This document shows, piece by piece, positions 11,226 through 60,354 of a stretch of 64,000 nucleotides of DNA. The position numbers were made by a program, and so were the translations under genes. The notes beneath the pieces were generated by a model that was given only the letters and a program-made list of their open reading frames with translations, was not told the DNA's origin and made no database searches. How positions within the stretch are numbered: position 1 is the stretch's first letter; the number at the start of each line of letters is the position of its first letter. Source of the DNA: Acidobacteriota bacterium (GTDB lineage: Bacteria; Acidobacteriota; UBA890; WLXD01); assembly GCA_012103255.1 (NCBI GenBank), contig WLXD01000004.1:310001-374000 (forward strand), in the 5' to 3' direction.

Positions 11226-13664
11226 CTACTCGGCGCGCAGCGCCCTGACCGGATCGAGTTGTGCTGCCGAACGTGCCGGCAACCAGTTGGCCGCGAGCGC
11301 CGCCGCCAGCAACAGGCTGCTGCCGCCAAGGAAAACGACCGGGTCGAGAGGGCTGATCCCGTAGAGAAACACCGCCATGAACCGTGTCGCGAATCCCGCC
11401 ACCGCGAGACCAAGAACCAGCCCGGCAATCGGTTCACGCATGCCCTGGCGCACGACCATGCCGAGCAGTGCGCGGGGCTCGGCGCCCAACGCGAGTCGGA
11501 CGCCGATTTCGGCGTGACGGCGACGCACCATCTGGGCCGTGACGCTGTACATGCCGATCCCGGCAAGCAAGATCACGATTGCCCCCATACTCGCACCGAG
11601 CGTCGCCGCAACGCGCTGGGGCAACAGTCCGAGATCGGCGTACGAACGAAGCGAGACCACCTCGAGAATGGGCAGATCCGGCGCAATGGTCGCCGCCGTG
11701 GCTCGGATCGAGGCGATGGTGCCAGCGGTGTCGCCGTCGATACGCGCCACGAGGAACGGCGCGGCGCTGTAGCGCTGTGCGTGCGCCACGTAGATGAAGA
11801 ACGGCGTCTCCTCCGTCAGCGTCTGGTACTTCGAATCGGCAGCTACCGCCTTGACCCGATACTCGGTCTCGCCGAGCGTGAAGACCTGGCCGACGGCATC
11901 GCCATTCCAGAAACGCTCCGCCGCGTGGGCATTGATGATCGCAACTCTTGCGGCGTCCGCGTTGTCGAGCTCGTCGAAGTCCCGACCGGCGACGAGGTCG
12001 ATCCCCATGGTCTCGAAGTAGCCCGGACCGACGATATTGGTACTGGCCGGGAAGCCTCCGTCCTCGTCAGGCGGCTGGTGCCCCGCCACACGCAGCCCGC
12101 CGAAGCCCATGTTCGACGGCAATCCAAGCGGTAGCAACACGCTGAGTCCCGCCCGCGTGACGCCGGGCAGCGCCTCGGCGCTCTCGGCCAGGTTTGCGAG
12201 CACCGCGGCGCCCGCGGCTTCGTCCAATCCAGTCAGGGCGGCATCGAGCCCGATCGCGTATACGCCGGTCGCATCGAAGCCGAGATCGATCGCGGCCGCG
12301 CGGTTCAGCGCGCGCACGAACAACCCTGCCGTGACGACCAGAACTACGGTCAAGGCCACCTGTGCAACGGTCAGCGCGCGACGCCCGAGCAATCTGGAGC
12401 CGGCGACGGCCCCCTCCCCTTTGAGCGCCGGCACGAGATCTGCGCGGCTGACGCGTGCCGCCGGGCCGAGGCCGGCGAACAGCCCCGCCAGTCCGGTCGC
12501 GAGCAGCGCGTAGGTCATCACTCGCGCGTCGAGCTGCGGAGAGAACGCAATGTCGAACGGAGGCGGAATAGGAAGGTCAATGGACCGCATCGCCGCCATC
12601 GCCCCCGCGGCGCCCACCGTCCCGAGAACGCCGCCCAACCCCACGAGCAAGAACGACTCTGTGAGCAGCTGCTGCACGATGCGGCCCCGCCCGGCTCCGA
12701 GCGCAGACCGCACGGCCACCTCCCTGCGTCGCGCGAGCGACCTGGCCAGGATCATCCCGGCCACGTTGACGCACGCCACGGCAAGCACCAATCCCACGAC
12801 CACACTCAATACGACCATGAAGAGCTGGACCATGCCGGCTAGATCAACCGGCAGTGTGCCCAGGGCATTGGCAACCACACCCTGCCCTTCGAGCTCGTCG
12901 GGCCGGGAGTCCACCAGTGCGGCCATCTGGGCGTCGAGCTCCGCGCGTGCTGTCCCGAGGCTCGCGCCGTCCGCGAGTCGACCGACGCCGAGGATCATGT
13001 TGTTGCGCCAGCCTTGCAGCGTCTCCCCGGAGATGAATCCACCGGCCTCCATGCCGAGCGGCACCCACGCGTCCGCGCGGATGACCGCGAGGCTTCCCGT
13101 GAATCCGGGAGCCGCTACGCCGACGACCGCCGCACGCGTCCCATTGATGCGCACTTCGCGCCCGATGACCGCCGGATCCGTCTCGAAGCGATCGCGCCAG
13201 AGCGCGTCGCTGATTACGACGATTGAGGGCGTGCCGCCCGCACCGGCCTCGCCGGGAGCGAAACCGCGGCCCAGCTGCATCGGCACACCGAGCACGTCGA
13301 AGTAGTTGTCCGTCACCTGAAGACCCATCAGAGCGGCAGGCGAATCGCCCGCGCCTATCCCCATCGGAGCGAAGGTCCAGCCAGCGACTTCGACCGTCCG
13401 GCTGCTCTCGCGCAAAGCGTCGAGCGCCGGGTAGGCGAAAGTATCGGAGCCGCGCCCGTCCTGGCTACGGCCGATCTCGACGAGGGCCGCCGGCTCCGTG
13501 ACCCCCGCGAGCGGGCGCAGAAGCAGCGCGTCTGCGAGGCCGAAGATCGCCGTGTTGGCGGCGATCCCAATCGCGATACACGACGCCGCGGCAAGCGTGA
13601 ACCCGGGCGCGGCAGTGAGACGACGAAAGGCGTAGCGGAGGTCGGCCAGGAGGCTGTCGGACAT
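11226..13664 (-). CDS. ADOP-type ABC permease, no N-terminal prefix domain
   Basis: 812 residues, the shortest intact permease in the window. The first membrane segment is at about residues 17-42 (IAIGIAANTAIFGLADALLLRPL). A MacB-like extracytoplasmic domain follows, then three segments ending in VACVNVAGMILARS. The second half repeats this plan and ends in the typical LDPVRALRAE. Family knowledge: ADOP proteins are MacB/FtsX-type permeases with both halves in one chain, encoded without an ATPase; export of peptides or lipids is presumed. Unlike the other five, it lacks a cytosolic prefix of 80-100 residues. Its ATG follows AGAGGG by about 5 bases. It is divergent from the truncated PadR gene and shares the 38-bp dyad between them. 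Confidence 0.9.
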   Translation of the reverse strand: MSDSLLADLRYAFRRLTAAPGFTLAAASCIAIGIAANTAIFGLADALLLRPLAGVTEPAALVEIGRSQDGRGSDTFAYPALDALRESSRTVEVAGWTFAPMGIGAGDSPAALMGLQVTDNYFDVLGVPMQLGRGFAPGEAGAGGTPSIVVISDALWRDRFETDPAVIGREVRINGTRAAVVGVAAPGFTGSLAVIRADAWVPLGMEAGGFISGETLQGWRNNMILGVGRLADGASLGTARAELDAQMAALVDSRPDELEGQGVVANALGTLPVDLAGMVQLFMVVLSVVVGLVLAVACVNVAGMILARSLARRREVAVRSALGAGRGRIVQQLLTESFLLVGLGGVLGTVGAAGAMAAMRSIDLPIPPPFDIAFSPQLDARVMTYALLATGLAGLFAGLGPAARVSRADLVPALKGEGAVAGSRLLGRRALTVAQVALTVVLVVTAGLFVRALNRAAAIDLGFDATGVYAIGLDAALTGLDEAAGAAVLANLAESAEALPGVTRAGLSVLLPLGLPSNMGFGGLRVAGHQPPDEDGGFPASTNIVGPGYFETMGIDLVAGRDFDELDNADAARVAIINAHAAERFWNGDAVGQVFTLGETEYRVKAVAADSKYQTLTEETPFFIYVAHAQRYSAAPFLVARIDGDTAGTIASIRATAATIAPDLPILEVVSLRSYADLGLLPQRVAATLGASMGAIVILLAGIGMYSVTAQMVRRRHAEIGVRLALGAEPRALLGMVVRQGMREPIAGLVLGLAVAGFATRFMAVFLYGISPLDPVVFLGGSSLLLAAALAANWLPARSAAQLDPVRALRAE

Positions 13665-13745
13665 CGGACCCTCTGAAGGCTATGCGGAAAGAGCACGGGG
13701 TTCGGAGTAACAACGCACGGCCGACTCGAATGGTTACGTGCGAAC

Positions 13746-13805
13746 TTGCAGTTCGCCGAGAGCAAAGACTACAGTGTGGGTATTGACTAATAACCACACT
13801 GTAGT
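13746..13805 (+). promoter_or_regulatory. PadR promoter with 38-bp palindromic operator
   Basis: Arms ACTACAGTGTGG (13768-13779) and CCACACTGTAGT (13794-13805) are a perfect 12-bp inverted repeat. TATT and AATA inside the 14-base gap share the same centre, so 16 of 19 pairs match. TTGCAG (13746-13751) and TACAGT (13770-13775), 18 bases apart, could be -35 and -10 for the PadR gene. The dyad also lies about 104 bases upstream of the divergent permease and may serve both. Confidence 0.7.
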
Positions 13806-13822
13806 TATTGAGGAGTTCCGCC

Positions 13823-14065
13823 GTGCAGCATCTTGGTGAATTCGAGCAGGTCGTACTGTTCGCTGCGCTCCGGCTCGACGCAGACGCCTACGGCGTGACG
13901 ATCCGGCAGGAGATCGAGGCGCACGGCGGACGGCGACGCAAGTACTGCCAGCTCACGGCTGCCGGAGCCGCGGCCCTACAGAACGCCTACGGCCGTGTTC
14001 GGGACATGGCCGACGGTGTGCTTGGTGACCTCGCGCTCCGGGCCGAGGGCGGAGACGACGAGTGA
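13823..14065 (+). CDS. PadR-family regulator with internal in-frame deletion of the recognition region
   Basis: 80 residues from GTG 13823, which has GAGGAG 7 bases upstream; an upstream TTG at 13808 lies before that site. It aligns well with the 113-residue PadR at 54104: LGEF-E, DAYGVTI and EIEA at the front, then RR-KY/F and the helical dimerisation tail. About 34 residues between EIEA and GGRR are missing. In the intact relative that stretch contains GAVYTALARLQKNGY, the recognition helix and start of the wing. The ORF is otherwise intact and its stop overlaps the permease start (GTGA). It may be a non-DNA-binding dimerisation partner or a decaying gene. Confidence 0.8.
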   Translation: MQHLGEFEQVVLFAALRLDADAYGVTIRQEIEAHGGRRRKYCQLTAAGAAALQNAYGRVRDMADGVLGDLALRAEGGDDE

Positions 14066-16734
14066 CCTCCGCTTCCTCGAGGTCTCCTCGCTTGGCACGG
14101 GCACTCCTGCGCCGTCTCATCGCCGAGCCCGCGCGCGAGTTCGTGCTCGGGGACCTAGAAGAAGAGTTCCACGATCACGTTCTGCCCCGTGACGGCCTCC
14201 GCGCCGCTCGGCGCTGGTACTGGACCGCCACATTCGCGTCGGTTCGTGCCGTTCACCGCGACGCTCCACACTCTCGCACGTCTATCCCCCGCCCCGAGCG
14301 CTTCATGAATCAGCTACTCCAGAACGTCCGTCACACCGTCCGGAGCTGGGCGCGCCAGCCGTCGATCACGGCGATCGCGCTCCTCGCTCTCACTCTTGGG
14401 ATCGGCGCCAATACCGCCATCTTCAGCGTGGTCTACAGCGTCCTGCTCAACCCGCTGCCGTATCCGGACGACGAGCAACTGATGACGGTTTGGCTCGACA
14501 ACACGCTCCAGGGCTGGCCCCAGGACGTGACGTCGTATCCCAACTTCGCAGACTGGCGGGAATGGAACGAGACGTTCTCGGACATGGCCGCCGTGAGCAC
14601 GCGCGCGGACAATCTCACCGGCATCGGCGACCCCGCACGACTTCGCGCGCAGGTTGTGAGTTCCAGCTTCTTTGAAGTCCTGGGCGTCTCACCGCTCCTC
14701 GGGCGCGGATTCACCGAGGAAGACTGGGACAACGATGCGAGACTCGTGGTGCTCAGCTTCGCGAGCTGGCAACAGCGCTTCGGTAGCGACCGCGCGGTGC
14801 TCGGACGAACGATCGATCTCAATGGGGACCCGCACACGATCATCGGAGTGATGCCTGGTGGATTCGAGTACACGCGGGCGGTAGACCACTGGCGACTGTT
14901 CCCTGCGAGCGTCCGTGAGTCTTCGCGCGGCCAGCTGTGGTTGGAAGTGGCCGGTCGTCTCCAACCCGGAGTCGCGGTCGAGACTGCCCGCGCTGACATG
15001 ACCCGCGTCGCGGAGAGACTCCAACGCGAGTACCCCGACTTCTATGAAGGCTATGGGGTGAGCATCGTGCCGCTCCACGAGCAGGTGGTGGGCGATGTCC
15101 GCCCGGCGTTGATGGTGCTCCTCGGAGCGGTCGGTCTGGTTCTCCTCATATGCTGCGCCAACGTGGCCAACCTGATGTTGGTCCGGGCGAGTTCCCGGCG
15201 CCGCGAGCTTGGGGTCCGAGCCGCTCTGGGCGCAGATCGCGGCCGCATATTTGGCCAACTGCTGACCGAGGCCGTCATGCTCGCGTCTCTGGGCGGGGCA
15301 CTCGGGCTTGGCGCGGCCCAGGCGGCGGTCTCGTACCTCCGCACCGCCGAACCGGACCTGCCGAGGCTTGCGGAAGTGGCGCTGCACTTCCCGGTTCTGC
15401 TGTTCACTTTGGGCATCGCGCTCGCAACCGGTCTTGTGTTCGGTGTCGTTCCTGCGCTCCGCGCATCGCGGCCGGATCTCACCGAGGTACTCGGTGACCG
15501 TGGCACCGGCGAAGCCGGCCCTGGCGCCGCGCGCCTTCGAGCTGCACTCGTGGTCGCAGAAATCGGTCTCGCCATCGTGCTGCTGGTCGGCGCCGGGCTG
15601 ATGCTCCGTAGCTACGCCGCCCTTCTCAATGTGAGCCCGGGGTTCGAGGCCGAAGGTGTGCTGAGTTTCCGCGTCTCATTGAGCGGCCCCAACTACCAGG
15701 ACGGCGACGACGCGCGACGTTACTTCGACGAAGCCATGGAGCGTCTCGGCGCGCTGCCGGGGGTTGGCGAGGTCGGTGGAGTGCGCAACCTGCCCATGGG
15801 GGCCGGCTTTTCGTCGGGCTGGTTCACCATCGAGGGGCGTCCCCCGGTGCCTCGAGCGCAGCTCGAAGAAGTCAAGATGAACACGGTGACGCGGGGCTAC
15901 TTCGACACCATGCGAATACCGCTGCTCGATGGTCGGGAATTCGTGGACACCGACAACGCGGACACCGAAACCGCCGTTGTCGTGAACGACACCTTCGTGC
16001 GGCAGTTCTTCCCCGACGAGGACCCGATCGGGCAACGGTTTCTGTACGGCATCCCCGACTTCTACGCGGACCCCGAGAATCCGGATGCGGCGCTGCCGTG
16101 GACCCGGATCGTCGGCGTGGTAGGTAGCGTGCAGCATCGCGGGCTCGATCAGGCCGCGGAGTCCGAGGTGTTCGCGGTGTTCGATCAGGCGCCGGCAGGC
16201 ACGCTCACGTTCGTTCTACGTGCCGACAATCCGAGTCAGCTCGCAGGCCCTGCGCGGGAGGCCATCTGGGCCATCGATCCAAACTTGCCCATCTCCAACA
16301 TGCAGACTCTCTCCGAGATCGTTGGAGCCACCACTTCGGCACGGCGATTCAATATGACCCTCCTGGCATTGTTCGCCGGGGTCGCCATCGTGCTCGCCGC
16401 CACGGGGATCTACGGCGTCATGTCCTACTGGGTAAACCAGCAGACGCGCGAGATCGGGGTCAGGATGGCGCTTGGAGCTGAACGTGGAGACGTTCTGCGC
16501 ATGGTGATGCGGAGAACCGCGGCGATCGTTGCCGCGGGCGTCGCGCTGGGCGTACTCGGCGCGCTGGCTACGGGCTCGGTGATGTCGAGTCTTCTCTTCG
16601 GAGTCGCCGCCGCAGATCCGATCACGTTCGTCGCAGTCGTGGGCGTCCTCGCCGGCGTCGCGATGCTTGCGAGCCTGGTGCCAGCGGTACGCGCCTCCGG
16701 CGTGGATCCGATGCACGCACTTCGCGACGACTGA
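14062..16734 (+). CDS. ADOP-type permease with N-terminal permease-prefix domain 2
   Basis: 890 residues, GTG start overlapping the PadR stop by 4 bases. Residues 1-81 form a cytosolic prefix with EFVLGDLEEEFHD, the signature of the NCBIfam 'permease prefix domain 2' group. The permease core begins at about residue 82 (MNQLLQNVRHTVRSWARQPS), with the first segment in [19 protein letters not shown]. The first-half segments include LICCANVANLMLVRA and the conserved GVRAALGADRGRI loop. The second half ends VDPMHALRDD. No Walker ATPase or MacA-like adaptor is nearby. The core matches the family at full length. Confidence 0.93.
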   Translation: MTSASSRSPRLARALLRRLIAEPAREFVLGDLEEEFHDHVLPRDGLRAARRWYWTATFASVRAVHRDAPHSRTSIPRPERFMNQLLQNVRHTVRSWARQPSITAIALLALTLGIGANTAIFSVVYSVLLNPLPYPDDEQLMTVWLDNTLQGWPQDVTSYPNFADWREWNETFSDMAAVSTRADNLTGIGDPARLRAQVVSSSFFEVLGVSPLLGRGFTEEDWDNDARLVVLSFASWQQRFGSDRAVLGRTIDLNGDPHTIIGVMPGGFEYTRAVDHWRLFPASVRESSRGQLWLEVAGRLQPGVAVETARADMTRVAERLQREYPDFYEGYGVSIVPLHEQVVGDVRPALMVLLGAVGLVLLICCANVANLMLVRASSRRRELGVRAALGADRGRIFGQLLTEAVMLASLGGALGLGAAQAAVSYLRTAEPDLPRLAEVALHFPVLLFTLGIALATGLVFGVVPALRASRPDLTEVLGDRGTGEAGPGAARLRAALVVAEIGLAIVLLVGAGLMLRSYAALLNVSPGFEAEGVLSFRVSLSGPNYQDGDDARRYFDEAMERLGALPGVGEVGGVRNLPMGAGFSSGWFTIEGRPPVPRAQLEEVKMNTVTRGYFDTMRIPLLDGREFVDTDNADTETAVVVNDTFVRQFFPDEDPIGQRFLYGIPDFYADPENPDAALPWTRIVGVVGSVQHRGLDQAAESEVFAVFDQAPAGTLTFVLRADNPSQLAGPAREAIWAIDPNLPISNMQTLSEIVGATTSARRFNMTLLALFAGVAIVLAATGIYGVMSYWVNQQTREIGVRMALGAERGDVLRMVMRRTAAIVAAGVALGVLGALATGSVMSSLLFGVAAADPITFVAVVGVLAGVAMLASLVPAVRASGVDPMHALRDD

Positions 16735-16811: not shown

Positions 16812-17837
16812 ATGCGCCGTAGTCGTTCATCCATTCGCATCGCCGCGGCCCTGCTCGCGCTCAGCACCGCACTGGGATGCACCGTTGCTCTCGCGCAGGA
16901 TCAGGACGAACAGCGCGCTCAGTGGCTCGCCGAAACGTTCCCGGCCAATGGTCGCGATCTCGCAATCGAGGTGGGTGACGCGGACGTCGTGGTGCGCAAT
17001 GGCGACGTTGACGAGATTACGTTCGAAGTGTGGTTCCGTGCACGCGACCTGAACGCGGCACGGGACCGTGTAGAGCGGATGAACTTCCGCGCGGAAGACG
17101 ACGGCAACACGGTACGCATCCTCTCTGACGCGGTTGACGACGACTGGCGCGACTGGGATTGGCGGCGCTGGGGCAGCTTCGACGTCGTGGTCGAAGCGAT
17201 CGTTCCGGAAGCGATCGATGCTCACATCGTCTCGGGCGATGGTGACGTGTCGGTGCAGCGGCTGAACGGTCGCATCACAGTGATCGCCGAGGACGGCGAC
17301 GTGCTGGCCGACTCACTGACCGGCAGCATCGAACTACGCAGCAACGACGGCGACCTTGGCGTGCGATCGGTTGGCGGTGCGAGCCTGATCGCCCACACCG
17401 ACGATGGCGACGTGACCCTCGGAGACCTCACCTCCGGCACGGTTGATATCCACACGGACGACGGCGACATCCAGGGCACGCGCCTGAGTGCGGGCAGCAG
17501 CCAGGTGGTGACGGGTGATGGCGACATCGTGATGGATTCAGTGGCTGGCGAGTTCGACGCTCGCACCGGAGATGGTGACATCCATGTGAGCATCGACCGA
17601 CTCGACTCGACCTCGCTCACCACGACCGAAGGCGACATCACCATCCGCGCCGGTGCCCAGCTCGCGGCGAACCTCGACTTGCGCGGCCCGGGGCTGTCGA
17701 TGAGAGAGGCCGTGCGTGCGAACTTCAAAGGCCGCGTGGAGCGGCGCCTGATCGAGGGCGCGCTCAATGGTGGCGGCCCCGCGCTGCAGGCGCGCACGCA
17801 AGACGGCACGATCGTTCTCCGCCTGAACCGAGACTAG
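16812..17837 (+). CDS. DUF4097-type beta-repeat secreted protein (DGD repeats)
   Basis: 341 residues. A signal peptide (1-29, ending ALGCTVALAQ) directs it to the periplasm or surface. An early Cys in that signal could be a lipobox, but the context fits poorly. From about residue 130 the chain is a series of short beta strands with the repeat D-G-D-V/I (GDGDVSV, EDGDVLA, NDGDLGV, DDGDVTL, DDGDIQG, GDGDIVM, GDGDIHV, EGDITI) about every 18-20 residues, as expected for a DUF4097 beta-helix. Function is unknown; family members sit near PadR regulators and permeases. It lies 77 bases after an ADOP gene and before the next PadR, so it may be cargo of, or a stress sensor for, that cassette. Confidence 0.88.
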   Translation: MRRSRSSIRIAAALLALSTALGCTVALAQDQDEQRAQWLAETFPANGRDLAIEVGDADVVVRNGDVDEITFEVWFRARDLNAARDRVERMNFRAEDDGNTVRILSDAVDDDWRDWDWRRWGSFDVVVEAIVPEAIDAHIVSGDGDVSVQRLNGRITVIAEDGDVLADSLTGSIELRSNDGDLGVRSVGGASLIAHTDDGDVTLGDLTSGTVDIHTDDGDIQGTRLSAGSSQVVTGDGDIVMDSVAGEFDARTGDGDIHVSIDRLDSTSLTTTEGDITIRAGAQLAANLDLRGPGLSMREAVRANFKGRVERRLIEGALNGGGPALQARTQDGTIVLRLNRD

Positions 17838-54103: not shown

Positions 54104-54445
54104 ATGGGCCGCGTACTCGGCGAGTTCGAACATCTGATTCTGCTGGCGCTGGTGCGCCTCCGCGAGGACGCCTACGGCGTGACGATCAAGGAAGAGATCG
54201 AGGCTCAAACGGGGCGCGAGCTCTACATCGGGGCCGTGTACACGGCCCTCGCACGACTGCAGAAGAACGGCTACGTCGCCGCTGAGGTGGGCGAGCCAAC
54301 GGCCAAACGCGGAGGCCGACGCAAGAAGTTCTACACGCTCGCGAACCCGGGGCGTGACGCGCTGCGCCAGTCGCAGCTAGCGCTCCGCGGCATGAGTGAA
54401 GGTATCGAGGCCGAACTCGACGCGATCACGGAAAGCAGCTCATGA
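54104..54445 (+). CDS. PadR-family transcriptional regulator
   Basis: 113 residues, ATG with AAAGGA upstream. It is the best full-length example of the type here: LGEFEHLILLALVRL, DAYGVTIKEEIE, the recognition region IGAVYTALARLQKNGYV, a wing with GGRRKKFYTL, and a C-terminal helical tail. It is the closest relative in the window of the truncated PadR at 13823. Its stop overlaps the ADOP start (ATGA). Confidence 0.95.
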   Translation: MGRVLGEFEHLILLALVRLREDAYGVTIKEEIEAQTGRELYIGAVYTALARLQKNGYVAAEVGEPTAKRGGRRKKFYTLANPGRDALRQSQLALRGMSEGIEAELDAITESSS

Positions 54446-60000: not shown

Positions 60001-60354
60001 TTGGCCCAGCCAGACGACTTGCTGCCTCTTTCGCCGCTGACGATGGCGATCCTTCTCGCGCTGGTGGACGGCCCGTCACACGGGTACGAGCTCATGCAGT
60101 CGATCGAGCGGCAGACCGACGGTCAGCTCAAGCCCGGCACCGGAAGCCTCTACGCGGGACTTCAGCGCCTGGTAGACGACGGCCTGATCGAAGAGCGTGC
60201 CGGCGAGCCGGGCGCGGACCGGCGACGACGCCACTACGGCATCACCACGGCTGGCCAGGACGCGGCCCGAGCTGAGGCAGCACGACTCAAGCGAGTGGTA
60301 GATGTGGCCGCCGCCAAGAACCTGGCGCCCGCCGCCGGAGGCTCTTCGAAATGA
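60001..60354 (+). CDS. PadR-family transcriptional regulator
   Basis: 117 residues, TTG start with GGAG eight bases upstream. The N-terminal winged helix has LTMAILLALVDGPSHGYELM, the recognition region GTGSLYAGLQRLVDDGLI, and the wing ADRRRRHYGITTAGQD. The tail is short. The complete operator just upstream implies self-repression. Its stop overlaps the ADOP start (ATGA). Confidence 0.95.
   Translation: MAQPDDLLPLSPLTMAILLALVDGPSHGYELMQSIERQTDGQLKPGTGSLYAGLQRLVDDGLIEERAGEPGADRRRRHYGITTAGQDAARAEAARLKRVVDVAAAKNLAPAAGGSSK

Follow-up and report, generated by a model that had tools for sequence, protein, structure and literature searches.

Closest described systems

PadR subfamily 2 (PadR-s2) includes regulators of the LmrR and bcPadR1/2 type (PF03551; TIGR03433, padR_acidobact). 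According to the PadR-s2 structures, helix α3 is the recognition helix, the residues presumed to contact DNA are located in α3 and in the wing, and helices α4' and α1' of the mate pack against α4 (PMC3506622). The gene described here belongs to a window of 64,000 nucleotides, i.e., the whole stretch of DNA that was analysed. It resembles members of this subfamily in having LGEFEQ-AYG helices at the N terminus, a GGRRRKY strand and one helix at the C terminus, in its position ahead of a transporter gene, and in the presence of putative inverted-repeat operator sites upstream. The operator here is TACA-N-TGTA, whereas ATGT-N8-10-ACAT has been reported for LmrR. Unlike other members of the subfamily, the short PadR is devoid of α3, β1 and the wing loop; it scores below the PF03551 and TIGR03433 cut-offs.

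A similar layout is known for the ADOP permeases with a linked PadR (TIGR03434/TIGR03433). In the window, the permease likewise scores above the ADOP cut-off, and the PadR gene lies directly upstream and overlaps it; in contrast to that system, the regulator is internally deleted.

Proteins of the Id and SHP type in animals are dominant-negative partners without a DNA-reading part. The short PadR is similar to them in that a DNA-reading element was lost and the dimer elements were kept, but it is a single occurrence and its partnering is hypothetical. A literature search for PadR expansion with ADOP permeases or for bacterial dominant-negative regulators found nothing useful.

Organization of the locus and the internal deletion

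The gene, its translation signals and the adjoining permease gene are located as follows.

13809-13815, + strand, Shine-Dalgarno-like GAGGAG before the GTG of the short PadR (read from the sequence)
13823-14065, + strand, PadR-s2 gene in shortened form, running from a GTG start to a TGA stop, 80 aa
13919-13927, + strand, approximate deletion joint, codons GCG CAC GGC (A-H-G); 34 further codons are present here in intact paralogues
14062-16734, + strand, ADOP-family permease, intact, 890 aa, whose start overlaps the stop codon of the PadR (GTGA); TIGR03434, 931 bits (cut-off 622)

The product opens with MQHLGEFEQVVLFAALRLDADAYGVTIRQEIEAHGGRRRKYCQLTAAGAAAL. Its EIEA-H-GGRR stretch is the counterpart of EIEA-(35 aa)-GGRR of the intact PadR encoded at 54104 of the window, which amounts to a net deficit of 34 codons (102 bases). 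For a wider comparison, 48 intact PadRs of the ADOP-linked clade were aligned (47 from elsewhere in the genome and the one at 54104); these were obtained from stretches around other PadR genes of the genome and from PadR frames in the window. The missing codons are present in all 48, and the deletion appears as one clean gap at a constant site. The sequence-only reading, which had placed a loss of about 34 residues between EIEA and GGRR, was thus confirmed; its statement that the reading frame, ribosome site and permease overlap were kept also agrees with the GTG frame, GAGGAG and GTGA at 14062. As for the slippage at short ACGG repeats that it had suggested, comparison of the codons at both edges in ten paralogues gave no support, since both copies lie within the surviving sequence and product. 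No long repeat was seen at the joint.

From the layout, the GTGA overlap is assumed to couple translation of the two genes, and ATGA overlaps end several paralogues. The permease has its own GGAG before the start, which weakens strict translational coupling. An in-frame deletion is the type of lesion that such an operon would tolerate, yet one third of random deletions are in frame anyway.

A second permease, of MacB/FtsX type (812 aa, window 11226-13822, - strand), is divergent from the short PadR. Directly 3' of the ADOP permease, a DUF4097 (toastrack) protein is encoded at 16812-17837 of the window, possibly in the same operon.

Structural consequences of the deletion

The AlphaFold2 model of the intact 54104 PadR, built from a three-sequence alignment (mean pLDDT 88.6, pTM 0.77), contains α1 (7-22), α2 (25-36), α3 (42-54), β1 (58-65), β2 (73-79) and α4 (81-111). 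When the short PadR is mapped on this model, the end of α2, the whole of α3 and β1, and the wing loop are missing, and α1, most of α2, β2 and α4 are kept. The proposed loss of the recognition helix is borne out by both the alignment and the model; only the start of the wing had been thought to be lost with it, whereas the entire first wing strand, β1, is absent. With α3, β1 and the wing loop missing but α1 and α4 kept, the model predicts a protein that no longer reads DNA yet retains its dimer elements.

The short protein itself, modelled from the same three sequences, shows with low confidence α1 (helix 6-23), a hairpin and α4 (helix 46-76), so that α1 and the single C-terminal helix of PadR-s2, both retained in the sequence, also appear as helices; α2 is no longer helical. 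The fold is uncertain because of a pLDDT of 69.7 and a pTM of 0.41, compared with 88.6 and 0.77 for the intact protein. Nothing significant was found when the PDB was searched with the short protein.

Family membership and phylogeny

The short PadR scores 17.1 bits with PF03551, below the cut-off of 27 (49.3 for the intact 54104 PadR), and is therefore not listed in the Pfam census of the genome. The TIGR03433 cut-off is missed by the short PadR and equally by the intact 54104 PadR. When the 4.8-Mb genome was searched with a profile built from the N-terminal 34 residues, 64 matches representing this PadR clade were obtained, and the short gene is the sole one with a frame below 109 aa (86 aa versus at least 109 aa).

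In the phylogenetic tree, the short PadR belongs to a subclade of 11 PadRs whose other members are all intact (support 97/96 and 96/89), and this nesting indicates that the intact form is ancestral. Descent from PadR-s2 proteins follows from the tree position and from the N segment, which is 76% identical to that of the paralogue L080. The end branch is ordinary in length (0.66, median 0.72). The scores of the N segment (68.1) and the C segment (40.3) are inside the subclade ranges of 45.5-71.6 and 31.1-73.9, respectively. Among all 48 paralogues, the N segment ranks high, as 46 of 48 score lower, but the C segment ranks low, with 4 of 48 scoring lower; equally low C scores occur in several subclade members, and the C segment is about 41% identical to the nearest paralogues. 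GC3 is 0.775, versus 0.78 for the permease. General decay of the remaining gene was rejected, as both segments score normally and neither branch length nor GC3 is unusual.

Neither recurrence nor conservation of the short form was found in the genome, in 396 genomes of the phylum (no more than 14 candidates scored per genome) or, using the short protein as the query, in GTDB contigs. Orthologues were not detected by DNA search within the genus, by the permease protein in the order (best permease, 44% identity) and in GTDB contigs, or by the short protein in the family, class, phylum and GTDB contigs. An ancient family of short PadRs was rejected, as the tree places the gene among intact PadRs and these searches revealed no other short form. 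With this nesting, a normal remainder of the gene and no short relative detected in the 396 genomes, the loss looks lineage-specific.

Putative operators

Upstream of the short PadR gene, one further feature was found.

13768-13805, no strand assigned, 38-base inverted repeat (17-base arms, 1 mismatch) corresponding to two clade operators

Copies of the operator CTACAGTGTGG are located at 13769-13779 (+) and 13794-13804 (-), with centres 25 bases apart, and the palindrome is better read as two putative sites of the subclade type CTACANTGTRG. No matches to the palindrome pattern were obtained in 100 shuffles. The palindrome had been described as the longest operator palindrome and as kept; it is present, but the one of the PadR near 60049 (17-base arms, one mismatch) approximately equals it in length.

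The core ACANTGT is enriched upstream of these PadRs (17 of 64, versus 1.8 expected in shuffles). The subclade operators are CTACA[GC]TGTAG (L080, L097) or CCACAWTGTGG (L084, L093), some in duplicate, and intact PadRs with CTACA[GC]TGTAG are found at C5:30988 and C1:88063/88084. Genome-wide, CTACANTGTRG gave 18 strand-matches, compared with 1 for the reversed control; they merge to 12 sites, seven of which lie within 150 bases upstream of clade PadRs, so that the motif is closely associated with these genes. The formal probability of 1e-16 for this association is overstated, as the sites are paired and belong to four genes.

The PadR with the most similar N segment (72%) from another family of the order, L140, is intact and is preceded by ACTACACTGTAGG-N10-CCTACACTGTAGT. 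Operator type and N-terminal sequence are thus linked, and the ancestor of the short PadR very probably had α3. Without α3, the short PadR is unlikely to bind the operators.

The short PadR gene and the divergent MacB/FtsX-type permease gene share the 158-base region with the operators, and both may therefore have been controlled by the lost repressor. A further inverted repeat in this divergent promoter region, GCGAACT-TGC-AGTTCGC (window 13740-13756), is unlike the PadR motif. A scan for the sigma-70 consensus revealed no promoter above the threshold.

Possible explanations of the short gene

It is probable that the gene is a local autorepressor of the ADOP permease operon disabled by an in-frame internal deletion, with the frame kept by the recency of the loss and by the overlap. 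The ancestral intact PadR would have autorepressed the operon, and the deletion would have abolished DNA binding. Since the short protein presumably cannot bind its operators alone, repression of the operon would either have been lifted or be exerted by an intact paralogue with the same type of operator. The operators would accordingly be either free or served by such a paralogue; shared motifs point to those at C5:30.9 kb and C1:88.1 kb of the genome (G000) as candidates. Two causes would have kept the frame open: the short time since the loss, and the uncoupling or down-regulation of the permease that a stop or frameshift would bring about. A disabled repressor is the simplest account, as it covers the same facts with fewer assumptions than a partner role. 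Another PadR of the genome, L136, is frameshifted, so the loss of single PadRs in this genome is not exceptional. Against a disabled repressor, decay of the retained residues is not excessive, a pattern that would also fit a protein still under selection; the C segment is low among all 48 paralogues, though not within the subclade; and the GGAG of the permease lessens strict coupling. If the repressor is indeed disabled, the locus is a snapshot of a genome with more than 100 PadRs losing or rewiring one of them without loss of operator or operon, and cross-regulation by the named intact paralogues becomes testable through the operators that they share.

The short protein could instead function as a partner in heterodimers, either dominant negative or ligand sensing, as the sequence-only reading had proposed; through α1/α4 it would pair with an intact PadR that has the same operator type, titrating it off DNA. 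The retained dimer elements (PMC3506622) with scores normal for the subclade, the intact frame and ribosome site, and the existence of intact PadRs with the same operator type are consistent with this role, but the short form is unique in the genome and in the 396 phylum genomes (no more than 14 candidates scored in each), the modelled fold is of low confidence with α2 not helical, and about 41% identity of the C segment to its nearest paralogues does not assure pairing. A partner role thus appears unlikely. In particular, dominant-negative action is permitted by the retained α1/α4 and is possible, but it is unsupported. It is distinctly improbable that this PadR, without its recognition helix, is a transporter-linked partner that sequesters intact paralogues sharing its operator type and represents a bacterial counterpart of the Id type that arose in a very large PadR set. 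A working partner would be an unusual bacterial inhibitor born from the loss of a DNA-reading helix.

An assembly or consensus artefact, with the full gene present in the genome and 102 of its bases dropped during assembly, is quite improbable: the retained parts look normal and the L136 frameshift in the same assembly could be a sequencing error, but a clean in-frame loss of 102 bases is atypical of small-indel consensus errors, and no long repeat was seen at the joint.

That the frame is a mere translated leader with a functionless peptide, bringing ribosomes to the start of the intact permease through the GTGA overlap at 14062 (comparable to the ATGA overlaps of several paralogues), is very unlikely, as the retained parts score like normal PadR sequence and the permease carries its own GGAG.

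PadR set of the genome

The whole genome contains a very large PadR set, with at least 150 PadR-family matches above the cut-off in 4.8 Mb (192 candidates). In the second damaged PadR, L136 (G000:C6:384700-385550), the N- and C-terminal parts are in different frames; the frameshift falls between helix 2 and helix 3 and is either real or a sequencing error. Many PadRs of the genome adjoin ADOP-type permeases, and their ACANTGT operators have diversified (CTACA, CCACA, GACA and AACA flanks), providing natural material for reading PadR-operator specificity.
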